Made by a program: the position numbers and the translations under genes
In this document: positions 53,836 to 57,904 of the stretch, one piece after another
How the letters are laid out: every line of letters begins with the position of its first letter
How positions within the stretch are numbered: the first letter of the stretch is position 1
Origin: Crocinitomicaceae bacterium
Lineage (GTDB): Bacteria; Bacteroidota; Bacteroidia; Flavobacteriales_D; Sanyastnellaceae
Length of the DNA stretch: 64,000 nucleotides
Assembly: GCA_002700285.1 (NCBI GenBank)
Contig: PACT01000024.1
Location: 1-64,000, forward strand
Direction: 5' to 3'
Notes under the pieces: model-generated
Database searches by the model: none
What the model saw: only the letters and a program-made list of their open reading frames with translations
Told to the model about the DNA's origin: nothing

Positions 53836-53879
53836 AATGCGAAGTTACCTGAAGAAAGCCCTTGAACGTACATTGCAAT

Positions 53880-54470
53880 ATGGAATCATCACAAATTATA
53901 GATATTGCTTTAGGTATCATCCTAATTTGGGGTGCCTTCTCTGGATTCAAGAAAGGGTTTATTCTATCAATTGCATCATTTATCGCAATTGTTGCGGGAG
54001 CAATCGCGGCGTATTATGGTTCTGAGGCGATTGCTACAGCATTGGCCTCAGAGGTTGACTGGAGCAGTCAAGAGATTGCTGTGGCCGCCTTCGCCATTGC
54101 GTTTATCGCCGTCGTTCTGATTGTACATCTTTTGGCAAGAATTTTAGAGAAATTTATCGACTTGTTGGCTTTAGGGTTTGTAAACAAACTCTCTGGAGCT
54201 ATTTTCGGAATGGCAAAAAACGCACTTCTTCTCACATTTGTCATTTTTGGAATTAAAGGATTCGGAGGAAAACATATCCCTGAAAGTGTAGAGAAGAACT
54301 GCGTGATTTTTCCTATCGTAGAATCCATTGCTCCGCTTGTGTTGCCGTATTGGAAGGATTGGTCTGAGAAGACGGATCTAGAAAAATTGGAAGAAAAAGC
54401 CAACGAAAAAATGAAAGAAGCGAAGGAGAAGATTAAAGAAACAAAAGAGAAACTAGAGGACAAACGCTGA
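53880..54470 (+). CDS. CvpA-family membrane protein with charged coiled tail
   Basis: IDIALGIILIWGAFSGFKKGFILSIASFIAIVAG; C-terminal EKANEKMKEAKEKIKETKEKLEDK. Confidence 0.88.
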   Translation: MESSQIIDIALGIILIWGAFSGFKKGFILSIASFIAIVAGAIAAYYGSEAIATALASEVDWSSQEIAVAAFAIAFIAVVLIVHLLARILEKFIDLLALGFVNKLSGAIFGMAKNALLLTFVIFGIKGFGGKHIPESVEKNCVIFPIVESIAPLVLPYWKDWSEKTDLEKLEEKANEKMKEAKEKIKETKEKLEDKR

Positions 54471-54476
54471 TTTTTC

Positions 54477-57110
54477 TTACGCTGCACCCACAGCTCGAAA
54501 CAACGCTGTAATTTGATTGGTCAGCTCTGATTTTTTCTCTAAGTAGTCGTCGGTAACTTGCAGCGTTGTATTCACACTTACATAGAATTTTATCTTTGGT
54601 TCTGTCCCTGAAGGACGAACCGTAATTAGAGACCCCTTTTCTGTGACAAACTGGAGAACATTTGACTTAGGTAAAGGTATATTATTGACTTCCGAGGATA
54701 TTAGATTATGATTTTTTTGTGTTTTAAAATCAAGCAGTCCTATAACTTTTTCTCCAGCAAGCATGCGAGGAGGGGATGATCGAAATCTAGAAATCAACTC
54801 GGAGATCTCATGTGCGCCTTCCCTGCCCATTTTCACGATGGACACCAACCCTTCTTGATAGAGGCCATATGTTCGGTGAATATGCTCAAGGTGAGCCAAC
54901 ATCGTGGTTCCGTTTTCTTCTAGTGAATGTGCGAGCTCAGAAAGTACACAACATGCTGCGATCGCATCTTTATCTCTTGCAGTATTCTTGATAAGGTATC
55001 CGTAACTCTCCTCTGCGCCGACAATAAAATTTCGACCATTCATCCCTTTCTCTTCTTCTGCGATTGCAGCAGCGATATGTTTAAATCCAGTGAGCGTTGT
55101 TCGCACACCTAATCCATAACTTTCTGCAATTACAGCCAGAAGCGGAGAGGTGACAACAGTCGAAGCCACAAAATCTGATGCATCGTATGCCTCTCCATTG
55201 TCTCTTCCACAACGAATGACGTAATCGAAAAGCAACGCGCCAGTTTCATTTCCATTCAGCAATTGAAAACCTCCTTCTCCATTTGGGACAGCGATCCCTA
55301 CCCGATCAGCATCTGGATCTGTCCCCATAACAAGCGTCGCGCCTAACTTTTCGCCGAGCGAAATTGCTTCTGCCAAAGCTTGCCCCTCTTCGGGATTAGG
55401 GCTTGATACCGTCGGGAAATTCCCGTCAGGCAACGATTGTGACGTAACCTCGTGAACATTTGAAAAACCAAACGCCCTTAGTGCTGGAGGGACACTTACA
55501 GATCCTGCACCATGTAACCCGGTAAAAACAAGACACGATTCCGAACTGTTTTCTTTGAGTGAAACTGAACGTCTTAATTTCAGAATTGCATTGAGATATC
55601 CTTCATCCTCTTCTGGTCCTAGAAAGGTGATCAAGTCCTCAGAGGCGATCTCTCCAGAAGCGACTTTCACTTCTGAAAGTGATTTTATTTTTCGAACTTC
55701 TTCAATGATGGCGGAGTCATGGGGAGACACGATTTGGCCGCCATCATCCCAATACACTTTGTATCCATTATATTCTGGAGGATTGTGTGATGCCGTCACA
55801 ACGACACCTGCCACACATCCTAAGTGTCTGACTGTCCAACTCAATTGAGGTGTGGGCCTTAATTCTGGATATAACAATGCTTGGATGCCATTCCCTGACA
55901 AAACCCTCGCGGTAACCTCTGCAAATTCATAACTTTGATGACGACAATCGAATGCAATGGCTACTTTTAAGGGTGTTGACGTATGTGGTGTCGTTTTCTT
56001 GATGTAATTCACGAGCCCTTGTGTGGCGCCCGAAATAACAGCCGCGTTGATGCGGTTCGTCCCCGGGCCACAAATGCCCCGCATCCCACCCGTTCCAAAT
56101 GCGATATCCTTGTGGAAGGCCTCTATCAAAAGATCTTCTTTATTTTCCAACAACCACATCCCCACGGTCTTTCTAGTTTCCTTATCATATGGTGCGTGAG
56201 ACCAAACCTCTGCCTTTCTTCTTACTCTCTCTAGCTCGCTCCCCACACACATTTTTAAAGATTCTTTCCACGTTCGTTTTTCTAGATTTAATAATGTCCG
56301 AAGATGCGTTCCACCCAGATGTGAATTGGCTGGTCTGACTGCACGTGTAGGATATTCAGAGGTTGTAATCCCCACCACTTGAACATCCATGTCTAATTCT
56401 TCAAATATAGCTCTGGCAAAAGAGGCCCAACACGTGACGCCCTCATCGCTAAAGTGCAATACCCCAGACTTCACATCCCCGCCTTTAAGAACGAGCTTAC
56501 GTAAGGCCTCTGACAAAGACCCCACATAAGTTGGCGTCCCTCTCTGATCGTAAACGACTTTAATTTCGCTTCTCTCCTGTCCCAGTTTAACCATCGTGGT
56601 GAAGAAGTTATGTCCCACATTGTCATACAACCAGCTTGTTCTCACGATGTGATACCTTCCTCCGCCTTTTATCATCTCCGCTGCAATCGCTCGCTCTCCT
56701 TCCGCCTTAGACTCACCATAAACTCCCAAGGGATTCACAGTGTCACTTTCCAGATATGGCCTCTCTTCTGTACCTCCCTCTTTTCCGTTAAAAACATAAT
56801 CTGTGCTTAGATGAACCAAAGCAATGTCCAGTTCACAGCAAATACGTGCGATGACTCCTGGCGCAACTGCATTTACTTCCCAAACCATTTTTTGATCACT
56901 TTCAGCCTGATCAACATCTGTATATGCAGCGGCATTAATAACGCAATCTGGGCGTTCGGCAGACAGTACCTCCTGAATCCTATAAGCGTCACAAACGTCG
57001 AGGTCCTTCCGAGTGAATCCAACCCAATGAAGATCAGCGTCCATTGCAAACCGCCTGAGAAGACAATTGCCTAATTGCCCACTTGAACCCATGACTAATA
57101 CTTTTTTCAC
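54477..57110 (-). CDS. Fusion protein: N-terminal dTDP-4-dehydrorhamnose reductase (RmlD) with C-terminal phosphoglucomutase/phosphomannomutase
   Basis: One 877-codon ORF. Residues ~1-289 RmlD (VMGSSGQLGNCLLRRF, VINAAAYTDVDQAESD, STDYVFNGKEGGTEERPYLESDTVNPLGVYGESKAEGE, VRTSWLYDNVGHNF). Residues ~290-877 alpha-D-phosphohexomutase (AFGTGGMRGICGPGTNRIN, TASHNPPEYNGYKVYWDDGGQI, MGTDPDADRVGIAVPN, EESYGYL, RPSGTEPKIKFY). Confidence 0.92.
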   Translation of the reverse strand: MKKVLVMGSSGQLGNCLLRRFAMDADLHWVGFTRKDLDVCDAYRIQEVLSAERPDCVINAAAYTDVDQAESDQKMVWEVNAVAPGVIARICCELDIALVHLSTDYVFNGKEGGTEERPYLESDTVNPLGVYGESKAEGERAIAAEMIKGGGRYHIVRTSWLYDNVGHNFFTTMVKLGQERSEIKVVYDQRGTPTYVGSLSEALRKLVLKGGDVKSGVLHFSDEGVTCWASFARAIFEELDMDVQVVGITTSEYPTRAVRPANSHLGGTHLRTLLNLEKRTWKESLKMCVGSELERVRRKAEVWSHAPYDKETRKTVGMWLLENKEDLLIEAFHKDIAFGTGGMRGICGPGTNRINAAVISGATQGLVNYIKKTTPHTSTPLKVAIAFDCRHQSYEFAEVTARVLSGNGIQALLYPELRPTPQLSWTVRHLGCVAGVVVTASHNPPEYNGYKVYWDDGGQIVSPHDSAIIEEVRKIKSLSEVKVASGEIASEDLITFLGPEEDEGYLNAILKLRRSVSLKENSSESCLVFTGLHGAGSVSVPPALRAFGFSNVHEVTSQSLPDGNFPTVSSPNPEEGQALAEAISLGEKLGATLVMGTDPDADRVGIAVPNGEGGFQLLNGNETGALLFDYVIRCGRDNGEAYDASDFVASTVVTSPLLAVIAESYGLGVRTTLTGFKHIAAAIAEEEKGMNGRNFIVGAEESYGYLIKNTARDKDAIAACCVLSELAHSLEENGTTMLAHLEHIHRTYGLYQEGLVSIVKMGREGAHEISELISRFRSSPPRMLAGEKVIGLLDFKTQKNHNLISSEVNNIPLPKSNVLQFVTEKGSLITVRPSGTEPKIKFYVSVNTTLQVTDDYLEKKSELTNQITALFRAVGAA

Positions 57111-57187
57111 CCTACGAAACTACGACGAACACTATATTTGTTTGAATCAAAAATTCACTTTGGCACGTCTCTTGTATTAAATAACCC

Positions 57188-57904
57188 ATGAAAAAATCTC
57201 TATTTCTATTGTTTGCATTGATTGCATTGACATTTGTCACCCAAGCCCAAACCTCAAATAACAAATCCGCTTCGTCAAAAAGCAAAAAGCATATAGTCCA
57301 CAAAGCGGTCCAACACATCTTGACGTTTAGCGCAATGTCTGATGTCCATAACGAGGATAATTTTGGGTTATTGCTTGACAGTCCGCAACTTGGGTTTGAC
57401 CTCAGTTACCGCAAACAAGACCAAACCAAGTTATTATCCAATGGCATCAGTTTGGGATGGCAACCCATTGCCACTGCGGATAATGAAATTGAGACCTCTG
57501 GGCAGGAAGGAGAGCTTAAGGCCGTTAACCAAATGATTCATGCGCATTATACGGTGACCCTTTCTCCATTCAAACAGAAACGTTTCCAACCCTATCTAGA
57601 AGGGATTGTCGGCGCAAAAGGCGTGGCGCTTTCTTCATCCTATGATTACGATGATCCACAACTAAAAGATGTGAATGACATCCCATACTTTTCGGCGACT
57701 CTTAATTATGGATACGCAGGTGGATTTAGACTTCGAGCAACAGAGCTTATTTATCTCGATGTGAGGTATGCAAGAATTCAATCCGGCAACTTAAAAAGAA
57801 TCTCAGACATAGATATTGATGAAAATGGGGAGCTTTCTTATTCTACAGATGAGTGGAAAGCGCCTATTGGATATTTAAGAGCGGGGATCTCACTGTCTTT
57901 CTAA
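57188..57904 (+). CDS. Predicted outer-membrane beta-barrel protein, function unknown
   Basis: Signal peptide MKKSLFLLFALIALTFVTQAQ; strand-rich body ending in aromatic LRAGISLSF. Confidence 0.7.
   Translation: MKKSLFLLFALIALTFVTQAQTSNNKSASSKSKKHIVHKAVQHILTFSAMSDVHNEDNFGLLLDSPQLGFDLSYRKQDQTKLLSNGISLGWQPIATADNEIETSGQEGELKAVNQMIHAHYTVTLSPFKQKRFQPYLEGIVGAKGVALSSSYDYDDPQLKDVNDIPYFSATLNYGYAGGFRLRATELIYLDVRYARIQSGNLKRISDIDIDENGELSYSTDEWKAPIGYLRAGISLSF

Follow-up and report, generated by a model that had tools for sequence, protein, structure and literature searches.

A single open reading frame in a 64,000-nucleotide stretch of DNA (hereafter the window) joins two complete enzymes of sugar-nucleotide metabolism that act at opposite ends of one pathway: the dTDP-4-dehydrorhamnose reductase RmlD and a phosphoglucomutase (PGM)-type phosphohexomutase. 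PGM makes glucose 1-phosphate (G1P), from which RmlA, RmlB and RmlC produce dTDP-4-dehydrorhamnose, the substrate that RmlD reduces. The host genus is one of small-genome, apparently flavobacterial Bacteroidota. The fusion arose at least twice, independently, from neighbouring genes. We consider it probable that the loss of a stop within an ancestral rhamnose operon created a bifunctional polypeptide, with 1:1 co-production of the two enzymes, and not channelling, as its likeliest benefit.

The frame lies on the minus strand (54477..57110) and runs uninterrupted through 877 codons, encoding 877 amino acids, from a GTG at 57110 to a TAA at 54477-54479. Residues 1-289 form a complete RmlD, directly joined to a complete phosphohexomutase in residues 290-877. 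Pfam matched RmlD_sub_bind (PF04321) to residues 3-289 (1.2e-86) and PGM_PMM domains I-IV (PF02878, PF02879, PF02880, PF00408) to residues 337-845, all over cut-off; the RmlD half also scored 286.9 bits against the TIGR01214 rmlD equivalog, for which the cut-off is 224.05. A preliminary description, made from the letters of the sequence, had proposed the unbroken 877-codon frame, the two domains and a seam at about 56243; all three were right, and the strand is added here.

Table 1. Coordinates of the rmlD-pgm fusion gene and of its predicted functional elements in the window.
Feature	Position	Strand	Basis or remark
rmlD-pgm fusion gene, 877 codons, GTG start, TAA stop	54477..57110	-	fixed in genus
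RmlD (dTDP-4-dehydrorhamnose reductase) domain, residues 1-289	56244..57110	-	PF04321, TIGR01214; best solved relatives 1vl0, 3sc6, 1kbz
NAD(P)-binding GxxGQLG, residues 8-14	57069..57089	-	G8, G11, Q12, L13 and G14 invariant in alignment of relatives
Predicted RmlD catalytic Thr103 (T104 of Salmonella RmlD)	56802..56804	-	alignment to 1kbz; triad from PMC4832382
Predicted RmlD catalytic Tyr131...Lys135 (Y128, K132 of Salmonella RmlD)	56706..56720	-	alignment to 1kbz; PMC4832382
Seam, residues 281-303, predicted one helix, no added linker	56202..56270	-	AlphaFold2 models
Alpha-D-phosphohexomutase (phosphoglucomutase type) domain, residues 290-877	54480..56243	-	PF02878/79/80/PF00408; fold search matched solved PGMs
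Catalytic phosphoserine loop TASHNP, residues 439-444	55779..55796	-	motif, genus-conserved
Metal-binding loop DPDADR, residues 598-603	55302..55319	-	motif, genus-conserved
Sugar-binding loop EESYG, residues 700-704	54999..55013	-	motif, genus-conserved
Phosphate-binding loop RPSGTEPK, residues 832-839	54594..54617	-	motif, genus-conserved

The motifs of both enzymes are intact, as first proposed, and are conserved in the complete sequences of the genus. The catalytic triad of Salmonella RmlD is T104/Y128/K132 (PMC4832382); alignment to 1kbz matched it with T103, Y131 and K135 of the fusion, and the triad is invariant among relatives. The same alignment placed C16 and G197 at the positions of the Salmonella interface and dimer glutamates E15 and E190 (motif from PMC4832382), a pair that marks the Mg-dependent dimeric, Salmonella-type subclass and is absent from the fusion. 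Because C16 and G197 replace E15 and E190, the RmlD domain resembles the metal-independent monomeric class. GacA, a stand-alone RmlD of that class (PMC4832382), has the same triad and likewise lacks the Mg/dimer glutamates; the fusion differs in that its RmlD C-terminal helix is predicted to continue into PGM. A fold search returned RmlD structures with TM up to 0.95 of the target.

All four phosphohexomutase active-site loops are present in the other half, for which the fold search returned phosphoglucomutases at TM about 0.7. None of the NCBIfam PGM, PMM and GlmM equivalogs scored over cut-off on this half; a preference for glucose over mannose or glucosamine phosphates is putative. Stand-alone phospho-sugar mutases (phosphoglucomutases) of Bacteroidota, of ~580 amino acids and, unlike the fusion, without an RmlD domain, share about 42-54% identity with the PGM half. 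The only other phosphohexomutase in the genome is of the GlmM type; the fused PGM therefore probably acts as the cell's general PGM, and must serve further pathways too.

We compared 14 genomes of the genus; contigs cover the seam in all but one, where only the last part of PGM is on a contig. The same frame was open across the seam in all 13 of the separately assembled genomes with coverage, and the fusions, at 56-92% identity to the window protein, contained no stop. The frameshift or missed stop near 56243 that had been raised as a danger to the preliminary description is accordingly not borne out. An identity as low as 56% to the window protein means that the fusion is old. Both halves are under purifying selection: in the seven pairs tested, pairwise dN/dS was 0.12-0.18 for the RmlD part, 0.06-0.16 for the PGM part and 0.06-0.31 across the seam. 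A sequencing or assembly error that joins two genes might be suspected from sister genera, where rmlD and pgm are two genes, but the same open frame in 13 separate assemblies of diverged sequence rules out such an artefact and leaves this explanation a negligible probability.

The related genera covered by the comparison (g3, g5 and others) have rmlD and pgm as two neighbouring genes in the same order; in 44 split pairs, PGM homology begins 4-63 nt after the rmlD stop. Split neighbours in relatives had been named beforehand as evidence against a fusion; they do exist in sister genera, but they represent the ancestral state and not an artefact. In a tree of both halves, the 12 complete fusions of the genus grouped together (SH-aLRT 99) as sister to the split g3 (100). 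A second RmlD-PGM fusion occurs in two species (L136 in genome G128, L135 in G131) inside the otherwise split g11 of the same family; these two proteins are 67% identical to each other, and their seam differs from that of the window genus. Parsimony required two changes for the distribution of fused and split genes, and an AU test rejected all fusions as one clade (p = 4.6e-5). Separate genes in some genomes and one conserved ORF in others are the pattern of a Rosetta Stone-type gene fusion. Strong matches to further RmlD-PGM fusions were absent from the sampled genomes of the order (399), class (395) and phylum (396). Three candidates suggested by long open frames (G112, G022 and G021) proved to be split once the sequence was read.

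Structure prediction bears on how the two halves are joined. Both AlphaFold2 models gave one helix through residues 281-303, composed of the RmlD C-terminal and PGM N-terminal helices. The alignment behind the first model had misplaced RmlD rows, and the second model replaces it; at a moderate seam pLDDT (about 66-88) and a pTM of 0.65, the way in which it arranges the two domains relative to each other is tentative. Three genus members (L011-L013) have two extra residues in the seam helix, and the seam is shorter in L135. Given this variation in length, selection for a fixed geometry between the active sites is unlikely. The ORF could also yield two proteins, with PGM freed by cleavage or made from an internal start at the seam, where most members have an ATG or GTG nearby. 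This is very unlikely: the codons for residues 283-300 of L013 include no ATG, GTG or TTG, the L135 seam lacks a Met, and both models, at moderate confidence, show a seam helix and no disordered linker.

The preliminary description had linked the protein to dTDP-L-rhamnose while noting that rmlABC are missing from the window. The link holds and the remark, true of the window, misleads: rmlA sits 8 kb after the last window position, on the contig that also carries the fusion (C20:71933-72778), rmlB is on contig C5 and rmlC on C33. Presence of all three in the genome rules out another role for the RmlD half on the ground of missing rmlABC, and the fusion is the sole RmlD. In other families of the order, rmlD-rmlB-pgm lie on one strand (G037, G039, G050), and in G040 rmlA-rmlC run to a contig break, with rmlC-rmlD-rmlB-pgm beyond it. 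Because outgroups carry rmlD-rmlB-pgm operons, the link between PGM and dTDP-rhamnose synthesis does not depend on the fusion. The rmlA gene of the window genome (L180, G000:C20:71933-72778) adjoins genes for a polyprenyl synthase, an MMPL-family protein and 2-oxoglutarate dehydrogenase E1/E2. In several genera of the family, rmlA is roughly 15-27 kb from rmlD-pgm.

We propose that the ancestral rmlD-pgm pair was a remnant of an rml-pgm operon and lost the stop and short spacer in frame, which would explain why the last RmlD helix is continuous with the first PGM helix. The C-terminal half would interconvert glucose 6-phosphate and glucose 1-phosphate, RmlA, RmlB and RmlC, encoded elsewhere, would carry out the intermediate steps, and the N-terminal half would reduce dTDP-4-dehydro-L-rhamnose to dTDP-L-rhamnose with NAD(P)H. 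In a single uncleaved protein, the supply and terminal enzymes would be made 1:1 from one transcript. Direct channelling is unlikely and not to be expected, because RmlA, RmlB and RmlC act between the fused activities, which share no intermediate; a survey of metabolic fusions (PMC4921024) notes that the view that fusion alone produces channelling has been disputed. The earlier idea that the fusion ties entry supply to terminal reduction survives only in the sense of co-production or co-localisation, because the steps are not consecutive; PGM must also serve other pathways.

The main rival to a benefit from matched amounts is neutral fixation: after stop loss, the bifunctional protein may act just as two separate enzymes would, with no effect on flux or regulation. 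We regard this account, in which drift would explain the fusion, as credible, if the less probable one. The fused steps are not consecutive, no fixed domain geometry is kept (the helix at the seam has a two-residue indel, and L135 has a shorter seam), and fusion is mechanically easy because the spacers of split relatives are so short. Yet every genus member checked retains the fusion, down to the most diverged, and the fusion arose twice. Alternatively, the first and last enzymes may be tethered as a scaffold around which RmlA, RmlB and RmlC assemble, holding intermediates locally. Pathway logic and the presence of rmlB and rmlC among outgroup operon neighbours speak for such a metabolon, but the geometry of the seam varies, all other G1P users must be supplied by this PGM as well, and rmlA, rmlB and rmlC are scattered in the genome, so that we think it improbable. 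Slightly more doubtful still is a protein that forms an Rml metabolon core or couples the two activities by regulation, the occupancy of the terminal reductase, by NADPH or product, altering PGM flux; if this were true, a housekeeping PGM would be partly governed by rhamnose demand.

The fusion is a modest and apparently undescribed variation on fused sugar enzymes already known. Its nearest described counterparts both join consecutive steps. Like the RmlC/D fusion of Prymnesium parvum and other algae, which was shown to be bifunctional (PMC6556577), it is a natural fusion of dTDP-rhamnose RmlD; the algal protein combines RmlD with the step just before it, whereas the bacterial one combines RmlD with the PGM at the pathway entrance, with three steps between them. 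UGP1 of the diatom Phaeodactylum, a pyrophosphorylase with a phosphoglucomutase domain (PMC10356853), likewise pairs PGM with a sugar-nucleotide enzyme, but there the partner is the next enzyme and here it is the terminal reductase. The preliminary description did not know the fusion as a described enzyme, and we found no description of an RmlD-PGM pairing in the literature searched, the scope of which ended short of subscription journals and architecture databases. The main text of the survey of metabolic fusions (PMC4921024) mentions neither rhamnose nor phosphoglucomutase. The fusion is a clean natural case in which the two ends of a sugar-nucleotide pathway, and not consecutive steps, were joined twice independently. 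It singles out the fused Bacteroidota PGM as one with a functional link to rhamnose synthesis, and it lends itself readily to testing whether channelling or matched enzyme amounts are the reason that fusions are kept.

The fusion gene itself stands alone between a convergent CvpA-like gene (53862-54470, plus strand) and a divergent gene for which Pfam gave no match (57188-57904, plus strand). A TAnnTTyG-like box, TAGTTTCG, lies at 57115-57122 on the minus strand, 4 nt before the GTG start. We take it to resemble the Bacteroidota -7 promoter element, which would imply a nearly leaderless mRNA. The other genus members read have a similar box at that position, with TTAG instead of TTCG in L008-L010. 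Many genus members also have a conserved cGTGCCAAA element, between 57111 and 57187 in the window, at a varying distance upstream of the start.
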